Shown piece by piece: positions 3,126 to 39,546 of a stretch of 47,398 nt of DNA (positions within the stretch are counted from its first letter, which is position 1; the number at the start of each line of letters is the position of its first letter). The DNA is from Nanobdellota archaeon (lineage in GTDB: Archaea > Nanobdellota > Nanobdellia > SCGC-AAA011-G17 > ARS1403), in the NCBI GenBank assembly GCA_002687825.1, contig NZBI01000013.1, positions 1-47,398 on the forward strand. The letters run 5' to 3'. The notes under the pieces are model-generated. The model was not told the origin of the DNA and searched no databases. It worked only from the letters and a program-made list of their open reading frames with translations. Position numbers and translations under genes: made by a program.

Positions 3126-4466
3126 ATGAAAAAAATATTTTTATTATTATTTGTAAGTTTAGTTTTGATAGGTATAAATGTTGAAGGAAGGCAATTATTA
3201 GGGCCGGATTTAGTGATAGAATCCTTAACGATTAATCCTTTTCCTGTAGAACCTGATAGTACTTTTGATGTAACTATGAAATTAAGAAATTCAGATACTA
3301 GAAAAATTATTCGTGATTTAAGATTTAATGTTCAAGAATCCTATCCTTTTTCTATAGAAAGTAATGATAAAATAAAAAGAATTGAGGTTTTGTCTCCTAA
3401 TGAACAAGTATTTTTGAATTTTAAGATTAAGACAGATGTAAATGCTATAAGGGGAGAAAATAAATTGAAAATAGAATTTCAAGAAGGAACTGGTGTTAAA
3501 TATATAAGTGATCCCATAAATGTTGATGTTAAGGGAGCTGCTGTGGATTTATCAATCGCTTCTATAACTACTAATCCTGATGTTATTACCCCTGGTTCAG
3601 AAGTGCAGATAGTACTGGCAATAAAGAATACTGTTCCAGTGCTTATGAAAAATATAGATATTAATTTTGATTTGAGTGCTACAGATAGTCCTTTCACACC
3701 TCTTAAATCAACTACTAAAAGAAGTATTACTTCTTTAAATAAAGGGGATTCTAAAGGTTTAGAATTTGAATTAGCTGTTGATGCGGATACTGAGCCTAAA
3801 GTATATAAAATCCCATTAGAAATAGATTACGAAGATGAGTTTGGTAATGAATATTCTATAGATACTTTAACAGGATTGAAAATTAGTACAGATCCTTTAT
3901 TACAATATTCTATTGATGAATCTGAGGTTTATAATGCTGGTAATGCTGGAAAAGTTACTATTAAGATAGTTAATTCTGGATTGGCAGATACTAAATTTTT
4001 ATCTTTGGAATTAGAAGAAAGTAATGATTATGATATTGTTTCAGTTCCGATTGTTTACGTTGGTAATTTGGAGTCAGATGATTACGAAACTGCGGAATTT
4101 GATATATATGTTAAAAATTCTGGGAAAAATGTTCCTTTAGATTTTGTTGTTAAGTATAGAGATTCTTTCAATGAAGAGTATGAAGTCAATGAAATTATAA
4201 ATTTACCATTGTATTCTCAATCGCAATTAAGTAAGTTTGGGATTAGTAATGGAAAGAAAGGAGGAGGATTTTTCTATTATGTCATAATAGTGATCTTCAT
4301 TTATTTGTTCGTAGTCGAATGGAAAAAAACTAGAAATGTTCCTTTAGCATTGAAATTAACTGTAAGACATTTTTTAGTGTTTGTTAGAAAAGTGATTAAG
4401 TCCATAAGACTAAAGACTTTGAAGAATGCTATTGTTGCTATAATGAAATTTATCAAAGAAGAATGA
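3126..4466 (+). CDS. Exported CARDB/COG1361-like protein with C-terminal membrane anchor
   Basis: It begins with a signal peptide (MKKIFLLLFVSLVLIGINVEG), followed by about 350 residues of repeated beta-sandwich-like units. Phrases such as DLVIESLTINPFPVEPDSTF and DLSIASITTNPDVITPGSEV mark two CARDB-like repeats. A transmembrane segment lies near residues 380-400, followed by a basic tail of about 45 residues. Between an ABC ATPase and MacB permeases it takes the place a MacA-type adaptor has in bacteria. I infer an extracytoplasmic partner of the exporter. It starts 2 nt after the ATPase stop, and its end overlaps the next permease by 4 nt. Confidence 0.7.
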   Translation: MKKIFLLLFVSLVLIGINVEGRQLLGPDLVIESLTINPFPVEPDSTFDVTMKLRNSDTRKIIRDLRFNVQESYPFSIESNDKIKRIEVLSPNEQVFLNFKIKTDVNAIRGENKLKIEFQEGTGVKYISDPINVDVKGAAVDLSIASITTNPDVITPGSEVQIVLAIKNTVPVLMKNIDINFDLSATDSPFTPLKSTTKRSITSLNKGDSKGLEFELAVDADTEPKVYKIPLEIDYEDEFGNEYSIDTLTGLKISTDPLLQYSIDESEVYNAGNAGKVTIKIVNSGLADTKFLSLELEESNDYDIVSVPIVYVGNLESDDYETAEFDIYVKNSGKNVPLDFVVKYRDSFNEEYEVNEIINLPLYSQSQLSKFGISNGKKGGGFFYYVIIVIFIYLFVVEWKKTRNVPLALKLTVRHFLVFVRKVIKSIRLKTLKNAIVAIMKFIKEE

Positions 4467-5677
4467 TCTTTGATTTTTTCATTTATTCTTTTAATAGTTT
4501 AAAGGCGAGGAAAACTAGAACCTTGCTTACTATGGTGGGTATTTTCATAGGTATTGCTGCAGTTGTTTCTTTAATTTCTCTTGGAAGTGGATTTCAAAAA
4601 GCTGTAACAGCTCAATTTTCTAATTTAGGAACTGATATGTTAACTGTTCAAGCAGCTGAAACAGGATTCGGTCCTCCTGGAAGTACAGCATTGACTAAAT
4701 TAACTAATGATGATTTTAATGCGGTTAAGAAAGTAAGTGGGGTCAAAACTGTTGCTAAGAGATATATTCGGGCTGTAAATATTAAGTTTAGAGAAAAAAG
4801 TTTAGTTAATGCTATGTCTTCTTTGCCTCCAGATGAGGGTGCTAGAGATTTGATGTTAACTTCTTTGAATTTAGAAATTGAAGAGGGGAGATGGTTGAAA
4901 ACTGAAGATAAGTTTAAAGTTGTTTTGGGCAGCTCTTTTGCACAAGATAAATTTTCTAGGCCTATCCATAAAGGAGATAAGGTAAAGATTAATGATGTTG
5001 GTTTTGAAGTTGTTGGGATCTTAGTTAGGGCTGGTAGTCCTCAATTTAATGATATGGTGTTAGTTAATGAACCTATTTTAGAAGATTTGCTTGAAGTAGA
5101 AGATGAAATGGATTTAATGGTTGTACAAGTTTCTAATGCTAATGAAATTGAGAAAGTAGCTAGAAACATGGAAAAAACATTAAGAAAAAGTAGAGATGTT
5201 GAAGAAGGTAAAGAAAACTTTAATATCGAAACTCCTCAAAAATTAGTTGAATCCTTTACAGCAGTTTTAGATGTGGTCGCAGTTATTTTAATTGGGATTG
5301 CTGCTATATCTTTAGTTGTTGGTGGAATTGGGATAATGAATACCATGTACACAGCTGTTTTGGAGAGAACTCAAGAAATTGGGATTATGAAATCCATTGG
5401 GGCTACTAATAATGATATTTTATCTATATTTTTAATGGAATCTGGAATGTTAGGGTTGATTGGTGGAGCAATTGGAGTTTTTTTAGGAGCTAGTTTTAGT
5501 AAGTTAGTTGAAGTTGGCGCAGCTGTAGCATTAGGACCTAGTGTTTTAGTTGCGGATGTTAGTTTAGGTTTAGTTATTGGAAGTTTGAGTTTTAGCTTTC
5601 TTATTGGAACTGTTTCAGGAATTTTACCTGCTAAACAAGCTTCTTCGTTACAACCTGTTGATGCTTTGAGAAAATGA
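4463..5677 (+). CDS. MacB-type ABC permease (first of tandem pair)
   Basis: The layout is that of a MacB/FtsX permease: TM1 at about 19-41 (TMVGIFIGIAAVVSLISLG), an extracytoplasmic domain of about 220 residues, then three TM helices at about 270-292, 325-345 and 365-390. The cytoplasmic coupling segment LERTQEIGIMKSIGAT lies between TM2 and TM3, and the family ending PVDALRK is present. It overlaps both neighbours by 4 nt. It is a clear paralogue of the next gene, sharing the C-terminal core almost word for word, while the extracytoplasmic domains have diverged. A heterodimeric channel is likely. Confidence 0.9.
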   Translation: MIFDFFIYSFNSLKARKTRTLLTMVGIFIGIAAVVSLISLGSGFQKAVTAQFSNLGTDMLTVQAAETGFGPPGSTALTKLTNDDFNAVKKVSGVKTVAKRYIRAVNIKFREKSLVNAMSSLPPDEGARDLMLTSLNLEIEEGRWLKTEDKFKVVLGSSFAQDKFSRPIHKGDKVKINDVGFEVVGILVRAGSPQFNDMVLVNEPILEDLLEVEDEMDLMVVQVSNANEIEKVARNMEKTLRKSRDVEEGKENFNIETPQKLVESFTAVLDVVAVILIGIAAISLVVGGIGIMNTMYTAVLERTQEIGIMKSIGATNNDILSIFLMESGMLGLIGGAIGVFLGASFSKLVEVGAAVALGPSVLVADVSLGLVIGSLSFSFLIGTVSGILPAKQASSLQPVDALRK

Positions 5678-6870
5678 TTGGAGATTATTTTAGATACGGA
5701 ATTAGTAACTTAAGACAACAGAAATTAAGAAGTTGGCTTACTATGATGGGAATATTTATAGGGATGGCTGCAGTTGTTAGTTTAATTTCTTTAGGTCAAG
5801 GTTTGGAATCCTCAATAAATGAACAATTTGAAAGTATTGGTGTTGATAAATTATTTATTCAACCTAAAGGAATTTTTGGAGCTCCGACTACAGAAGTTAA
5901 TCCTTTAACTACTAAAGATTTGAAGGTGATTGAAAGTACTTCAGGGGTTGTAGATGCTGCAGGATTGAGTATTGAAGCTGCTAAAGTTGAATTTAATGAT
6001 GTTGTTAGGTATGTTACATTAATTGGATTTGTTGCTGAAGATCCTCTAATTGAAGAGGTTTATAGTTATGACATTGTGGAAGGAGGGAAGCTACTTAAAG
6101 GAGAAAAATCTAAAGTGGTTTTGGGGAATGCTTTCTTAGATGAAGATTTATTTGAAAGACAAATTAGAATAAGAGATAAGATTTTAATTAATGATATTGA
6201 ATATAAAGTTAAAGGATTTTATGAAACTTTTGGAAATGCTCCTGATGATCAAACTGTTTATTTACCATATGAAGTTGTTGAAGAATTATATGATGTTCCA
6301 GATGAATACGGGTTTTTGATTGCTAAAGTTGATGGAGATGCTGAAGCTATTGGTGGAAAGATTGAAAGAAAATTAAGAAAAAGTAGAGATCTTGAGGAAG
6401 GTAATGAAGATTTTAATGTACAAACTCCTAAAGAATTATTAGAATCTTTTAATGCGATTTTGAATATATTACAAATATTTTTAGTGGGGATTGCTGCTAT
6501 ATCTTTAGTTGTCGGGGGAATTGGGATAATGAATACGATGTATACTTCAGTGCTTGAAAGGACAAAAGAGATTGGAATTATGAAATCCATTGGGGCTACT
6601 AATAATGATATATTAGGGATATTTTTAGTTGAAAGTGGTATTTTAGGATTTATTGGTGGAGGAATTGGAGTTCTATTAGGAGTAGGATTTAGCAAATTAG
6701 TTGAAGTTGGAGCTGCTAATGCAGGATATAGTATTATTAAGATTAGTTTTCCTTTGAATTTGATAGTTGGTACATTGGTGTTTGCTTTTATTGTTGGTAG
6801 TTTATCTGGGGCTGTTCCTGCACATAAAGCTTCGAAATTAAAACCGGTTGATGCTTTGAGATATGAGTAA
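5674..6870 (+). CDS. MacB-type ABC permease (second of tandem pair)
   Basis: A 398-residue paralogue of the preceding permease with the same four-TM layout: TM1 TMMGIFIGMAAVVSLISLG, coupling motif LERTKEIGIMKSIGAT and ending PVDALRYE. The outer domain differs from the first copy, as expected after duplication followed by specialisation into a heterodimer. Start overlaps the previous stop (ATGA). It closes the operon PadR-ATPase-CARDB-permease-permease. Confidence 0.9.
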   Translation: MIGDYFRYGISNLRQQKLRSWLTMMGIFIGMAAVVSLISLGQGLESSINEQFESIGVDKLFIQPKGIFGAPTTEVNPLTTKDLKVIESTSGVVDAAGLSIEAAKVEFNDVVRYVTLIGFVAEDPLIEEVYSYDIVEGGKLLKGEKSKVVLGNAFLDEDLFERQIRIRDKILINDIEYKVKGFYETFGNAPDDQTVYLPYEVVEELYDVPDEYGFLIAKVDGDAEAIGGKIERKLRKSRDLEEGNEDFNVQTPKELLESFNAILNILQIFLVGIAAISLVVGGIGIMNTMYTSVLERTKEIGIMKSIGATNNDILGIFLVESGILGFIGGGIGVLLGVGFSKLVEVGAANAGYSIIKISFPLNLIVGTLVFAFIVGSLSGAVPAHKASKLKPVDALRYE

Positions 6871-12528: not shown

Positions 12529-12714
12529 TTATTCTTTCTTTTTTACTTCTACAAAACCGCATTTGCCGCATACATATCTATCAGAATGATTTCCTAAGAA
12601 GTAACCTGGGCCACATCTTTGGCAAGATCTTTCTCTAGTTACTGTATCGCCTTCTACCTTATACTTTTTCCAAACTTCACTTTGCTTCTTGTTTTTCGTT
12701 TGTTTCTTTGCCAT
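12529..12714 (-). CDS. rps27ae: Small ribosomal subunit protein eS27A (S27ae, eS31)
   Basis: The 61-residue protein has the four-Cys zinc ribbon of archaeal S27ae: C31/C34 in SCQRCGPGYFL and C49/C52 in VCGKCGF, plus the basic N-terminus with VWKKYKVEGD. It has full family length. It is the last gene of the minus-strand cluster after eS24, as in many archaea. The 30-nt gap before its start holds the third, diverged copy of the hairpin element. Confidence 0.92.
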   Translation of the reverse strand: MAKKQTKNKKQSEVWKKYKVEGDTVTRERSCQRCGPGYFLGNHSDRYVCGKCGFVEVKKKE

Positions 12715-12744
12715 CTAAACTTTCAAGAAAAGTTTAATCAAAAA
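12715..12744 (-). promoter_or_regulatory. Intercistronic hairpin element, copy C (eS24/eS27A)
   Basis: It fills the gap between the eS24 stop and the eS27A start. After TTTTTGATTAAAC the RNA can fold a 9-bp stem (12716-12736) with loop CUU. It shares the order T-run, purine/AA, CTTTT, CTT loop, AAAG with copies A (13314-13346) and B (38172-38209), but has more substitutions, several keeping the pairing. Confidence 0.5.
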
Positions 12745-13131
12745 CTATTTCTTTTCCTCCTTTTTTGGAGCTTCTTTTACTTCTTCCTTAGGAGCTTCTT
12801 CCTTTGGTTTTTCTTCTTTTTTTGCTGCTTCTTGTGCTGGAGGTGGAGAAGCTTCACCTTCTTTTGCTTTCTTCTTTTTCTTATTTATTTTTTCAAAATT
12901 TTCCTTGTCTTCTTTAGATTTGTAAATATTAGCTATAATTTTTGATTTTTCTCTTCCAAAATGTGGATAGATGTGTAATACAGAGATTACATCTTCTGAG
13001 GATTTAGTTTTTTCTGATAACTGTTTAATTATTTCTTTTTCGTTCGGAGTTGGTTTTTTAAAGTGTTCTAGTTCGTATGTAACTCTCGTTCTCTTTAACA
13101 GAGGTAGTGTTTTTTCTTTTATTAATTTCAT
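12745..13131 (-). CDS. rps24e: Small ribosomal subunit protein eS24 with long charged C-terminal tail
   Basis: Residues 1-85 match eS24: LLKRTRVTYELEHFKKPTPN, then VISVLHIYPHFGREKSKIIANIYKS split by the usual turn. Residues about 86-128 form an added disordered tail rich in Lys, Glu, Ala and Pro, ending KKEEKK. A similar tail occurs on eS6 (25922-26422). The start overlaps the end of spt4 by 4 nt, so translation is coupled. Confidence 0.92.
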   Translation of the reverse strand: MKLIKEKTLPLLKRTRVTYELEHFKKPTPNEKEIIKQLSEKTKSSEDVISVLHIYPHFGREKSKIIANIYKSKEDKENFEKINKKKKKAKEGEASPPPAQEAAKKEEKPKEEAPKEEVKEAPKKEEKK

Positions 13132-13313
13132 CTTGCTTTTATTGCATATTCGCCTTTATTTTGAATTTCAGCTTTTTTTGCAACTTCTGAAACATTTGGG
13201 TCTACAACATATAAACGACCTTGCCAGTTTTCACTGAAATCTGAAGATTGACAAATAGGGCAAACTGAGTCCTTTACAAATAATTTACACTTTTTACAAA
13301 CTTTTCTCTTCAT
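13128..13313 (-). CDS. spt4: Transcription elongation factor Spt4 (RpoE'')
   Basis: A 61-residue zinc protein with C6-x2-C9 (CKKCKLFV) and C18-x2-C21 (CPICQ), then SENWQGRLYVVDPNVSEVAK, which is diagnostic of Spt4. Spt4 pairs with Spt5 on the RNA polymerase clamp to increase processivity; no spt5 gene is in the window. Position after rpo7 and before eS24 is the standard archaeal order. Upstream of its ATG is copy A of the hairpin element. Confidence 0.93.
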   Translation of the reverse strand: MKRKVCKKCKLFVKDSVCPICQSSDFSENWQGRLYVVDPNVSEVAKKAEIQNKGEYAIKAR

Positions 13314-13346
13314 TGAACCTTTTTAAGAAAAAGCTTCACCAAAAAG
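13314..13346 (-). promoter_or_regulatory. Intercistronic hairpin element, copy A (rpo7/spt4)
   Basis: It lies between the rpo7 stop and the spt4 ATG. The 27 nt at 13319-13345 match 38176-38202 with one difference. The RNA folds CUUUUU-CUU-AAAAAG (13319-13333); beyond a G-G mismatch the stem can continue with A-U pairs. Two T-runs also make it look like a weak archaeal terminator, so intra-operon attenuation is an alternative to a protein-binding or processing site. Confidence 0.55.
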
Positions 13347-13910
13347 CTATTCCTTATCCTCCTTTGTTGCTTTTTTCTTATCATCAACTAACCACTGTAA
13401 ATTTCCTAAACCTGGTTGTCTCATAGTTAAACCTATTTTTGGATTGTTAAGATCTTTATAACTTACAGCTACTATTCTAGCTTTACATTTATCTTTAGTT
13501 TTTAATACTTTTTTGGATTCTTTACCAGTTAATACGCCTACCTTGCTTATACTGACAAAATCGTCCATTGTTTGAGAAACGTGAATCATCCCATCTATAG
13601 CTCCAATATCAAAGAAAACTCCGAAATCAGTTATATCTGTTACAGTCCCTAAGACTACTTCTTGGATTTCTGGTTTGAATGTTAAAATTTTAAAATTAGT
13701 ATCGTAATATGCTGCTCCATCACCTGGGACTATAACTCCTTCCCCCACCTTTGAAATTTCCTTTATTGCTAGAATTATTCCCCAGTCTTTGTCTATTTTT
13801 CCTTCGTATTGTTCATTAAGACGTTCTTTCAAAGTTTTTTCTAAATTTTTATCGTCAAAATTACTTGGAGGTAATCTGACATGACTTTGGATTTCTAGTT
13901 CGTAAAACAT
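13347..13910 (-). CDS. rpo7: DNA-directed RNA polymerase subunit Rpo7 (RpoE')
   Basis: I start at the ATG at 13910 (MFYELEIQSHVRLPPSNF), the conserved Rpo7 N-terminus; a start further up would run through the 52-aa gene. Residues 1-80 are the tip domain. Residues about 80-165 are the S1/OB domain (GTVTDITDFGVFFDIGAIDGMIHVSQ). The ending (GLTMRQPGLGNLQWL, then a Lys/Glu tail) is typical. Rpo7 forms the polymerase stalk with Rpo4 and binds nascent RNA. The previous gene ends 1 nt before this start. Confidence 0.93.
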   Translation of the reverse strand: MFYELEIQSHVRLPPSNFDDKNLEKTLKERLNEQYEGKIDKDWGIILAIKEISKVGEGVIVPGDGAAYYDTNFKILTFKPEIQEVVLGTVTDITDFGVFFDIGAIDGMIHVSQTMDDFVSISKVGVLTGKESKKVLKTKDKCKARIVAVSYKDLNNPKIGLTMRQPGLGNLQWLVDDKKKATKEDKE

Positions 13911-14554: not shown

Positions 14555-16482
<1,928 letters not shown>

Positions 16483-16483
<1 letters not shown>

Positions 16484-17416: not shown

Positions 17417-19828
17417 ATGCCTGAAAAAATACAAGTTCAATTAATTGAAGAAGAAATGAAGCAATCTTATATAGATTATGCTATGAGTGTTATAACTTCT
17501 AGAGCATTGCCAGATGTTAGAGATGGGTTAAAGCCAGTACATAGAAGAATTTTATATGCTATGCATAAATCTAAATTAACTTCTGATAAACCTTTTAGGA
17601 AAAGTGCCTTTATTGTGGGTAGGGTACTTGGAACTTATCATCCACATTCTGATGTTGCTGTTTATGATTCTTTAGTTAGATTAGCACAAGATTTTTCTAT
17701 GAGATATCCTTTAATACAAGGTCACGGAAATTTTGGTTCAATCGAAGGCTACCCTCAGGCTGCAATGCGCTACACTGAAGCTAGATTGGCAAAGATTTCA
17801 GATGAGATGTTGAAACATATTGAGGAAAATACTGTTGATTTTATTCCTAACTATGATGGAAGTACGAAAGAACCTGTGGTTTTACCTTCTGGAGTTCCTA
17901 ATTTATTAGTTAATGGAAGTACTGGAATTGCTGTTGGAATGACTACGAATATTCCTCCGCATAATTTGAAAGAATCTGTTGATGCTACTATTGCTTTAAT
18001 TGATAATCCTGAAATTGCTATAAATGATTTAATTCAAATTTTACCTGGTCCTGATTTTCCAACTGGTGGAGCTATTGCTGGGAAAGGAGGAATAAGAAAT
18101 GCCTATGAAACTGGAAGAGGTAAGATAACTGTACTTGCAAAACATGAAATTGAGGAAGTTAAGAATAAACAAAAAATAATAATTACTGAAATCCCTTATA
18201 TGGTTAATAAAACATTATTAATTGAAGGTATTGCTGATTTGATTAGAAGTAAAAGAGTTGAAGGTATTTCTGATTTAAGAGATGAATCTGATAGAAAAGG
18301 AATGAGAATTGTTGTCGAGGTTAAACAAGGTTATAATGCTGAAGTTGTTTTGAATCAATTACAAAAGTATTCTTCTTTGAAAACAACATTTGGTGTAATA
18401 ATGATTGCTTTGGTTGATGGAGAACCTAAAGTTTTGAATTTAAAAGAATTATTAGGAGAATTTGTTAAACATAGGAAAGAAGTTACAACAAGAAGATTAG
18501 AGTTTGAGCTGGAAAAAAGTAGAATGAGAGCTCATATTTTATTAGGATTAAAAGTTGCTTTAGAGAAAATTGATGAAGTTATTGCTACAATTAGAGGAAG
18601 TAAAGATCCTGTTGTGGCTAAGCAATTATTGATTGAGAAATTTAAATTAAGTGAGAAACAATCAGAAGCAATATTAGAGATGAGGTTACAGAGATTAACT
18701 TCTTTAGAGACTGAAAAGATAAAAGATGAGCATGATAAATTAGTAAAAAGAATTGCTGAATTAAGAGAAATATTAGATTCCGAAAGTATGATTTTTGATA
18801 TTATTAAAGAAGAATTAACATTAATTAAAGAGAAATATGGGAATGATAGAAGGACAGAATTGAAAGAAGATTTGATTGTTATAGATGATAAGGACTTAAT
18901 TCCTGAAGAAGATGTTGTTGTTACATTTACTCATAATGGTTATGTGAAAAGATTGCCAATTGATTCATATAAAGCTCAGAAAAGAGGTGGAAAGGGAGTA
19001 AAGGGAGCGGGAACTAAAGAAGCTGATTTTGTTGAGAATTTATTCATTACTTCAACACATGATTATATTTTATTTTTTACTAATAGAGGGAAATTATATT
19101 GGTTAAAAGCATTTTATGTTCCTGAAGGAAGTAGATATAGTTCTGGAAAAGCCATTGTTAATTTATTGAAATTAGAAGAAGGAGAGAAAATAACTACTTT
19201 AATTCCTGTTAAAGATTTTAGTAAAGGTTATTTGGTTATGTTGACTAAAAAGGGTCAAATTAAGAAAACTAGATTAGAGTTATTTTCAAAACCTAGAAGT
19301 AATGGTATTAGATGTATTAATTTGAAAGGGGGAGATGAGTTAATTAACGTTATGGAGACTGACGGTTATAAACAATTGATATTAGCTACTAGTAATGGAA
19401 ATGCGGTTAAATTTGATGAGATTGGAGTTAGGCCTATGGGTAGGGGGGCTTCAGGAGTTAGAGCTGTTAGATTAAAAGGTGATGATTCTATTGTTGGAAT
19501 GGATATTGCTAAAGATGGTATTTCTTTATTGACTTTGACTGAAAATGGTTATGGTAAAAGAACTGAATTAAAAGATTATAGATTAATTAAAAGAGGAGGA
19601 AGCGGAGTTATTAATATTAAAACTAGTGATAGAAATGGTAAAGTTATTGGAGTTAAAGCTGTTAAGGAAGAAGATGAAGTGTTTTTGATAACTTCTAAAG
19701 GTATTATGCTAAGGACTTCTGTTAAGAATATTAGTAAAATTGGTAGAGCTACTCAAGGAGTTAGAATTATTAAATTAAATGAAGGCGATAAGTTAAATTC
19801 TATTGCTAAGGTTGTTGGTGGAGAATGA
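17417..19828 (+). CDS. gyrA: DNA gyrase subunit A
   Basis: The 803-residue protein has the GyrA breakage-reunion domain with catalytic Y119 in AMRYTE. Its six-bladed C-terminal wrapping domain starts near 510. The GyrA box QKRGGKG (521-527) marks a supercoiling gyrase rather than topoisomerase IV. The quinolone-determining region reads YHPHSDVAVYD: positions equal to E. coli Gly81 and Ser83 are Ser and Val, while Asp87 is kept. Codons 103-119 are unusually rich in C- and G-ending codons. The next gene overlaps its stop by 4 nt. Confidence 0.96.
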   Translation: MPEKIQVQLIEEEMKQSYIDYAMSVITSRALPDVRDGLKPVHRRILYAMHKSKLTSDKPFRKSAFIVGRVLGTYHPHSDVAVYDSLVRLAQDFSMRYPLIQGHGNFGSIEGYPQAAMRYTEARLAKISDEMLKHIEENTVDFIPNYDGSTKEPVVLPSGVPNLLVNGSTGIAVGMTTNIPPHNLKESVDATIALIDNPEIAINDLIQILPGPDFPTGGAIAGKGGIRNAYETGRGKITVLAKHEIEEVKNKQKIIITEIPYMVNKTLLIEGIADLIRSKRVEGISDLRDESDRKGMRIVVEVKQGYNAEVVLNQLQKYSSLKTTFGVIMIALVDGEPKVLNLKELLGEFVKHRKEVTTRRLEFELEKSRMRAHILLGLKVALEKIDEVIATIRGSKDPVVAKQLLIEKFKLSEKQSEAILEMRLQRLTSLETEKIKDEHDKLVKRIAELREILDSESMIFDIIKEELTLIKEKYGNDRRTELKEDLIVIDDKDLIPEEDVVVTFTHNGYVKRLPIDSYKAQKRGGKGVKGAGTKEADFVENLFITSTHDYILFFTNRGKLYWLKAFYVPEGSRYSSGKAIVNLLKLEEGEKITTLIPVKDFSKGYLVMLTKKGQIKKTRLELFSKPRSNGIRCINLKGGDELINVMETDGYKQLILATSNGNAVKFDEIGVRPMGRGASGVRAVRLKGDDSIVGMDIAKDGISLLTLTENGYGKRTELKDYRLIKRGGSGVINIKTSDRNGKVIGVKAVKEEDEVFLITSKGIMLRTSVKNISKIGRATQGVRIIKLNEGDKLNSIAKVVGGE
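17723..17773 (+). other. Patch of atypical codons around the GyrA catalytic tyrosine
   Basis: Within 17 codons (His103-Tyr119) there are CAC, ATC, GGC, TAC, CAG, CGC and TAC, whereas the roughly 50 codons on either side use CAT, ATT, GGT/GGA, TAT, CAA and AGA almost only. This looks like a short imported or recoded tract. Confidence 0.5.
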
Positions 19829-37829: not shown

Positions 37830-38171
37830 TTAGTTTCCGCCTCTCTTAACTTGAGTTAATTTTCTAGCTTCTATTTCAGTTTCTCTTAACATTAAAGTGT
37901 CTTCAATTCTTATAGGACCCTTTACGTTTCTTCTGATAACTTTTCCTTGATCTCTTCCGTCTAGGATTTTACACCTAACTTGTATTACTTCTCCTCTCGT
38001 TCCTGTTCTTCCAACTATTTCTTCAACTGTTGCTGGAACTGCTTTTGAGAAGTTAATACCTTGGGAAGTATCTTGTTTTTCTTTCTTTTGTTGTGAGAAT
38101 GTAACATTTTTTTGTTGCTTTCGCTTTTCTTTCTTTAACGCTTTCTTTTCTTTCTTAGCTGCTTTAGCCAT
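37830..38171 (-). CDS. rps28e: Small ribosomal subunit protein eS28 with N-terminal extension
   Basis: Residues about 45-113 are a full eS28: [39 protein letters not shown] and [13 protein letters not shown]. Residues 1-44 are an extra Lys/Gln-rich N-terminus ([18 protein letters not shown]). No other start codon exists between this ATG and the core, so the extension appears real; eS28 is normally about 70 residues. The start follows copy B of the hairpin element. Confidence 0.93.
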
Positions 38172-38209
38172 AAATCTTTTTAAGAAAAAGCTTTACCAAA
38201 AATGGTAAA
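38172..38209 (-). promoter_or_regulatory. Intercistronic hairpin element, copy B (eL8/eS28)
   Basis: It fills the gap between the eL8 stop and the eS28 ATG. The 27 nt at 38176-38202 match copy A at 13319-13345 with one difference. The CTTTTT-CTT-AAAAAG hairpin is at 38176-38190, and the stem can extend by three A-U pairs past a mismatch. Upstream, TTTACCATTTTTGGTAAA can form a second small hairpin absent from copy A. Confidence 0.55.
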
Positions 38210-38587
38210 TTATTCCTTTTCCTCCACTTTTGATCCTGTTGTTTTTGTTGCTATTTCTTTTATTAGATCTTTAGCTTCGCCTTCTTCTGTTATTACAACT
38301 CCAGAACATGGGACAGATAAACCTGCTGCTGCACCTAACTCTAATTTAGCAGTTACTCCGATGCATGGAACATTTTTTTCTTCACATAAAGCTGGAAGAT
38401 GCATTATAACTTCTTCAGGTTGAGTGTCTTGTGCTACTACTACTAACTTAGCTACACTTCTTTCTATAGCTTTTGTAACTTCATTAGTACCTTTTTTTAA
38501 TTTTCCAGATTTTCTTGCGAGTTCTATAGCTTCTAGAGCCTTTTCAGAAATTTCTTTTGTTATTTCGTATTTAAATTGAATTGCCAT
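38210..38587 (-). CDS. rpl7ae: Large ribosomal subunit protein eL8 (L7Ae)
   Basis: A 125-residue L7Ae with GKLKKGTNEVTKAIERSVAK (RNA-contacting loop), LVVVAQDTQPEEVIMHLPAL, CEEKNVPCIGV and a short Glu/Lys tail. L7Ae binds kink-turns in rRNA, box C/D and H/ACA guide RNAs and RNase P. It is the first gene of the operon. SD AGGAGG lies close to the ATG and is partly in a hairpin (38592-38616). L7Ae regulates its own mRNA through its leader in some archaea, so autocontrol is possible. Confidence 0.95.
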   Translation of the reverse strand: MAIQFKYEITKEISEKALEAIELARKSGKLKKGTNEVTKAIERSVAKLVVVAQDTQPEEVIMHLPALCEEKNVPCIGVTAKLELGAAAGLSVPCSGVVITEEGEAKDLIKEIATKTTGSKVEEKE

Positions 38588-39139: not shown

Positions 39140-39158
39140 TTTAAGCTACTCTTTTGTC
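39137..39158. repeat. 22-nt direct repeat, copy 1
   Basis: Identical to 39339-39360. It spans the coding sequence for the KRVA tail, the stop codon and the next start codon on the minus strand. Confidence 0.75.
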
Positions 39159-39341
39159 CAACCCTTCTGAGTCTTCTTCAGCTAATTCAATAAGTTCCCA
39201 CACTTTTGAATCAGATTTGTTAACCCAGGATATAACTTCACCCATTCCAGGAAAGTATATGTCTTTAGTCCAGTAGGAACCTATTTTTTTATGAATTTTG
39301 TTTACTAAGTCACGACTTTCGTCATAAGTAAAAGTTTCCAT
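39141..39341 (-). CDS. Hypothetical microprotein, 66 aa (second after receiver), flanked by direct repeats
   Basis: Not recognised. Acidic, with aromatic residues (SYWTKDIYFPGMGEVISWV) and ending LDKRVA, the same six residues that end the 39343 gene. The 22-nt direct repeats at 39137-39158 and 39339-39360 cover both its ends, so it looks like a unit that was duplicated or inserted between the LDKRVA tail and the next start codon. Confidence 0.5.
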   Translation of the reverse strand: METFTYDESRDLVNKIHKKIGSYWTKDIYFPGMGEVISWVNKSDSKVWELIELAEEDSEGLDKRVA

Positions 39342-39360
39342 TTTAAGCTACTCTTTTGTC
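39339..39360. repeat. 22-nt direct repeat, copy 2
   Basis: Identical to 39137-39158, 202 nt away, which is the length of one small gene plus its junction. Confidence 0.75.
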
Positions 39361-39546
39361 TAAATCTGTAGAATCCTTTTCTTGAGCTTTTTTAGCTTCA
39401 GCTTCTAAATCTACGCCTAATTCTTTTAAAGCTTTAATGTGAGCTTCCATCAATTGTTCTGTTATTTTAACTATTTTTAATAATTCTTCTCTTTCTTTAG
39501 ATAAAGTTGCTAAAGATCCTTTATGAAATCCTATTTGTTCTGACAT
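39343..39546 (-). CDS. Hypothetical coiled-coil microprotein, 67 aa (first after receiver)
   Basis: Not recognised. Strongly helical (SKEREELLKIVKITEQLMEA, then HIKALKELGVDLEAEAKKAQ), probably a coiled coil, ending LDKRVA. It lies 2 nt after the receiver gene stop. Its likely role is a partner of the receiver, since no histidine kinase or output domain is encoded nearby. Confidence 0.5.
   Translation of the reverse strand: MSEQIGFHKGSLATLSKEREELLKIVKITEQLMEAHIKALKELGVDLEAEAKKAQEKDSTDLDKRVA

Follow-up and report, generated by a model that had tools for sequence, protein, structure and literature searches.

What are the closely similar hairpins that separate genes in ribosomal and transcription operons of this Nanobdellota archaeon? 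The 47,398-nucleotide stretch of DNA that was analyzed (the window) carries three of them, all on the minus strand: copy A (13315..13346) fills the gap between rpo7 and spt4, copy B (38172..38203) lies in the gap between the L7Ae and eS28 genes, and copy C (12715..12744) fills the gap between eS24 and eS27A. Pfam matches identify the flanking pairs eS24/eS27A, Rpo7/Spt4 and L7Ae/eS28, and the downstream gene in each case, also on the minus strand, begins at the element: the start codon of spt4 (13128..13313; PF06093) lies 1 nt past copy A, that of eS28 (37830..38171; PF01200) immediately past copy B, and that of eS27A (12529..12714; PF01599) immediately past the gap filled by copy C. A sequence-only reading of this DNA had proposed a dispersed regulatory RNA, processing site or internal terminator that coordinates translation genes. 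We consider that the three hairpins are probably copies of a short palindromic repeat of the mobile type that, at certain sites, has been retained as a folded structure spacing a Shine-Dalgarno (SD) motif from the AUG.

The hairpin copies and their repeat family

The minus-strand letters of copies A (TTTTTGGTGAAGCTTTTTCTTAAAAAG, 13345-13319) and B (TTTTTGGTAAAGCTTTTTCTTAAAAAG, 38202-38176) confirm that these differ at one position in 27 nt, and copy C (TTTTTGATTAAACTTTTCTTGAAAGTTTAG, 12744-12715) is a genuine, diverged copy of the same repeat. As that reading had described, all three separate a stop codon from the ATG that follows, and each forms a stem with a CUU loop. Copy A is composed of a T-tract (13345-13341) and a hairpin (13337-13315), GAAGCTTTTT-CTT-AAAAAGGTTC, that has one G.G mismatch; the hairpins of copies B and C occupy positions 38194-38172 and 12736-12716, respectively, and a second hairpin, TTTACC-ATTTTT-GGTAAA (38209-38192), overlaps that of copy B. 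The MFE z-scores of copies A, B and C obtained by single-sequence folding are modest (-1.2, -2.8 and -1.0), and so folding of this kind is, by itself, little proof of a hairpin. When the window was simulated 20 times with a first-order Markov model, pairs of 27-mers with at most one mismatch and at least 60 nt apart occurred 0 times; the remaining near-identical pairs of the real window come from tandem MacB/FtsX-like permease paralogues (4463-6870, plus strand; 79% identity over 300 nt). No Rfam match above the gathering score is found at copies A, B or C, and the element overlaps an Rfam family only in RNase P RNA, where one copy is located. The window also contains genes for DNA gyrase B (14597-16483) and DNA gyrase A (17417-19828), both on the plus strand of this archaeal genome, and a tandem pair of short ORFs (39141-39546, minus strand; 66 and 67 amino acids) with similar ends and no confident Pfam match.

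The complete element is ~31 nt in length and consists of a T-tract tail and an imperfect hairpin, the stem being flanked on its 5' side by TTTTGRT, TTTTCGT or TTTTGCT. Searching the archaeon's own genome (G000) for the 18-nt core with up to three mismatches gives 35 matches, compared to 7 for a reversed control. A sequence-only model (R1) gives 60 matches at E<=1, of which ~29 are at E<=0.01; R2, a model that includes structure and represents a shorter subtype, gives 40 matches at E<=1. With ~40 copies in 775 kb, the repeat is indeed dispersed, and the many additional copies remove the possibility that the three in the window stand alone. Among relatives in the same order, R1 at E<=0.1 finds 101 matches in G036, 70 in G020, 41 in G009, 39 in G003, 38 in G005 and 17 in G004, with 0-10 mostly weak matches in each of the remaining genomes; expansion of the repeat has thus been patchy. 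At E<=1e-4, a strict threshold applied to a single subtype, R2 has matches in just 10 of the 279 genomes of the phylum.

Covariation, proposed earlier as a check on the hairpin, is seen at the basal pair of the stem, which is Watson-Crick in 91 of 104 distinct copies (G-C in 44, T-A in 37 and A-T in 10). The mean over 5000 shuffles is 40.6 and the maximum 57, this control leaving the kinship among the 104 copies in place. Despite that kinship, the presence of three pair types across several genomes is strong support for the hairpin. One stem mismatch, mostly purine-purine, is located beside an A/U stem in ~70-80% of copies. A triple helix formed by the T-tract with the U-A stem was also considered; the lengths of tail and stem show a weak overall correlation (r 0.27) and none within G036, G009 or G005. 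A sense peptide, FLVKLFLKK(I/V), for which the frame is open through the sense copies, is an unneeded explanation because the basal pair covaries and the hairpin is retained in non-coding copies.

Genomic locations, and filled and empty sites

Gene contexts were read in the genome stretches around matches, the names eL18, eL43, uS15, uL13, uS9 and EF-1alpha being assigned by reading translations. In G000, copies precede spt4, eS28, eS27A, eL18, uS15 and eL43, and others are found within RNase P RNA, beside tRNA-Leu, near the 3' end of 23S rRNA and past the EF-1alpha stop codon. They occur in both orientations and are intergenic as well as intragenic; some form clusters, with close inverted pairs among them, in a region of short genes (C4:541-2514) and near 23S rRNA (C22:39480-40226). 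Copies internal to ORFs are antisense and read in a single frame, giving KLLEKPSPKE-like stretches in the tail of uL1, an adjoining 434-aa ORF, the tail of an AAA protein and, three times, a 651-aa protein. In the own-genome sequences, to which this observation applies, open frames run through the protein-gene copies and encode one recurring peptide. A match in uL3 (R2 E 1e-3) was taken as a false positive, sister proteins being about equally long at this position. Relatives have copies inside tRNA genes with large insertions (L331, L317 and L341). Large insertions holding this same hairpin and its tail are also present in the D-loop or anticodon loop of tRNA genes from Aenigmarchaeota/DPANN bins (L161 and L122). 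An excess of translation and transcription genes is confined to the copies at start codons that belong to the window's own family (eL18, eL43, uS15, eS27A, spt4 and eS28). The proposal that the hairpin specifically coordinates translation genes is not supported: the element is also housed by RNase P RNA, by introns of tRNA genes and by the tails of proteins, it occurs past stop codons and in antisense orientation, and the gaps in question are without it in most relatives.

Comparison of sister genomes bears out part of the expectation that the copies recur there. The rpo7-spt4 gap is filled in G000, G003, G005, G009 and G036, which represent three families, and most other genomes have a gap of 0-6 nt or overlapping genes at this location. 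The eS24-eS27A gap is filled in G000 and G003 and partly in G005. The expectation fails for copy B, since among the genomes read the L7Ae-eS28 gap is filled in the own genome alone; in G005 (L392) this gap contains another, perfect hairpin, CTTACTTTT-ACA-AAAAGTAAG. At the P3 arm of RNase P RNA, the element is present in G000, G004, G005 and G021, with diverged forms in G010 and G033, and G020 has one copy at another place in the molecule. P3 is a plain, short hairpin in most genomes, and for this reason we rejected it as the ancestral source of the repeat.

Most relatives lack the element at the spt4, eS27A, eS28 and RNase P sites, and in this it behaves like a mobile palindromic repeat of the RPE or REP kind. 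The pattern of filled and empty sites is consistent with insertion events and their later inheritance or loss, or with recurrent insertion at the same places, and the filling of the same gaps in distant lineages would not be favored by neutral, random insertion. In the mechanism that we propose, a ~31-nt repeat would have increased in number in certain lineages of the order, inserting wherever a compact genome tolerates it: stop-start gaps, 3' flanks of genes, flanks and introns of tRNA genes, loops of RNase P RNA and the tails of proteins. Its mobility would depend on an enzyme supplied in trans. An IS200/IS605 origin was rejected because the Y1_Tnp (PF01797) transposase is absent from the own genome, as it is from G003, G009 and G036, and no copy of the element is found in the flanks of four PF01797 genes in relatives. 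Virus and plasmid carriers were also set aside: the exact core pattern is absent from viral contigs, the bacterial form described below has no plasmid match in a search whose low-complexity filter may have masked it, and phage matches are partial.

Orientation and conservation at start and stop codons

The placement of the element relative to start and stop codons is far from random. Among 141 copies, the stem end abuts a sense start codon in 25 cases (2.9 expected) and an antisense stop codon in 22 (1.5 expected), while the tail end abuts a start codon in 5 (2.6 expected), all expectations being for random placement within the same loci. SD-like GGAGG motifs are present upstream of copy A (13358..13362), within the end of rpo7, of copy B (38221..38225), within the end of the L7Ae gene, and of copy C (12756..12760), within the end of eS24, each on the minus strand and putatively used in initiation. 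In all three, GGAGG lies in the K/E codons that close the preceding gene; the sequence shared by the preceding genes of copies A and B, which had been remarked on before, is best read as an SD-like motif. More generally, an SD-like motif is present at most 32 nt upstream of the element in 17 of 27 start copies and in 14 of 113 others (Fisher p 2e-7); it is missing from the other 10 start copies. Because the motif is on the far side of the hairpin, the repeat at such sites sits between SD and AUG.

Conservation at two of these sites exceeds that of the surrounding coding sequence. In G000 and G003, which belong to different genera, 59 of 60 nt are identical at the eS27A site, including GGAGG and the start region, compared to 133/184 and 165/247 (67-72%) in the coding flanks, and copy C itself is identical to the element in the same gap of G003 at 29 of 30 positions. 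At the spt4 site, 28 of 33-34 nt agree, against 60-72% within the gene. Neutral sequence at these two sites would have drifted further, and gene conversion or re-insertion could be part of the cause. The EF-1alpha stop site is similar in G000 and G005. Some start-site copies fold weakly, the spt4 copy of G009 at just -1.1 kcal/mol.

These observations suggest how an inserted repeat may have been domesticated. With a copy lying between the SD motif and the AUG, folding of the hairpin would let the 30S subunit still use the SD on the far side, and selection would then retain the fold at start sites; copies located 3' of genes such as EF-1alpha would be the stop-proximal counterpart. The specific proposal that the folded spacer keeps SD and AUG near enough is tentative, and we hold it with somewhat less than even confidence, since the distances from SD to hairpin and from hairpin to AUG still amount to ~18-21 nt in the folded state, above the usual spacing.

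The strict orientation of the stem end to start and stop codons, the same-site conservation in excess of the coding flanks, the recurrence of the spt4 site in three families and the covariation of the hairpin would also be expected of a functional cis-acting RNA hairpin for processing or translation control that mutation and selection, without transposition, had produced at many boundaries between genes. We regard this explanation as unlikely, however, because the element also lies in the coding tails of proteins, in loops of RNase P RNA and in tRNA introns, the gaps are compact or overlapping in most relatives, and dozens of independent origins of near-identical 30-mers would be hard to achieve. 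A U-tract-dependent archaeal terminator or attenuator inside operons, of the aCPSF1/FttA type, would account for the conserved T-tracts and for the copies positioned past stop codons, but is very improbable. Sense copies have the T-tract 5' of the stem, stop-side copies have an A-rich unpaired tail, and a copy immediately before the ATG in a highly expressed operon would cut off the next gene; past the EF-1alpha stop, moreover, a separate T-run lies behind the element, so that the internal terminator suggested earlier is not required. Least credible is a signal, for DNA uptake or for binding by a nucleoid protein, whose dispersal would be due to biased recombination; it suits a palindrome of ~30 bp with A/T tracts that is dispersed in both orientations and also intragenic, but leaves the start/stop polarity unexplained and accords less well than insertion with the difference of about one whole element between empty and filled sites.

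Relation to known repeats and occurrence beyond the order

Archaeal examples of short palindromic repeats have received little study, unlike the familiar bacterial ones, and spread without a visible transposase is one of the questions that such repeats pose. Rickettsia palindromic elements (RPEs) occur in frame in proteins and in the gene for RNase P (M1) RNA (PMC2229807, PMC10969869). They resemble the archaeal element in being palindromic, in having many intergenic and intragenic copies and in their presence in RNase P RNA, but are ~105-150 bp in length with long inverted repeats, a size class that excludes a ~31-nt element, which also differs in its locations within tRNA introns and between SD and AUG. 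By analogy, the element appears to work like an RPE without being one. REPs, hairpins of 20-40 nt of which some families have stem mismatches, include the archaeal element in their size class; they are tagged at one end, of high copy number and patchy between species (PMC3733652). GTAG REPs are linked to RAYTs, whereas CGTC-type repeats, which by assignment include the RPEs of R. conorii, are without a known transposase and are reported missing from Acetobacteraceae (PMC3733652). The archaeal element differs from REP/RAYT systems in the absence of a GTAG tag and of a Y1 transposase in its own genome and several copy-rich relatives, and in its presence within coding and RNA genes. An archaeal repeat in a 2005 paper cited in PMC2229807 is, by its title alone, similarly archaeal, palindromic, dispersed and peptide-encoding. 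RepRanger reports archaeal repeats (PMC12306157), the present family not being among those in the accessible part of that source, and the core string has no occurrence in the literature searched. The filled and empty sites of this family, together with its SD-AUG subset, make the spread and domestication of such repeats testable.

The pattern GGTGAAGSTTTTTCTN{0,3}AAAAGSTTC matches 49 stretches among 84,980 species genomes, for a rough chance expectation of <0.1. Nearly all are from acetic acid bacteria, Thermococcaceae, Micrarchaeota, Aenigmarchaeota, another DPANN bin and an Altiarchaeota bin. Applied to acetic acid bacteria, the archaeon-derived R2 model gives 122 copies for Novacetimonas hansenii, 99 for Acetobacter musti and 3 for Gluconobacter vitians, the last of these being a useful background level. 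A core common to an archaeon and acetic acid bacteria calls for explanation. One doubtful, though conceivable, account is that one element, its 30-nt core nearly unchanged, has spread both among acetic acid bacteria and in Archaea (several DPANN groups, Thermococcaceae and the Altiarchaeota bin), either through transfer between domains or through a conserved recognition factor, and was recruited in this archaeon as a hairpin bridging SD and AUG in ribosomal and transcription genes. The bacterial repeat carries TTTTTGGTGAAGCTTTTTCTAAAAAGCTTC, which is almost identical to the archaeal copies, but there forms a 30-nt arm of a longer nested palindrome, together with another, GC-rich hairpin and with inverted repeats on the outside. 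This longer repeat (L118-L166, for example L120:2620-2790) is present at ~100 copies per genome and is often located at contig ends.
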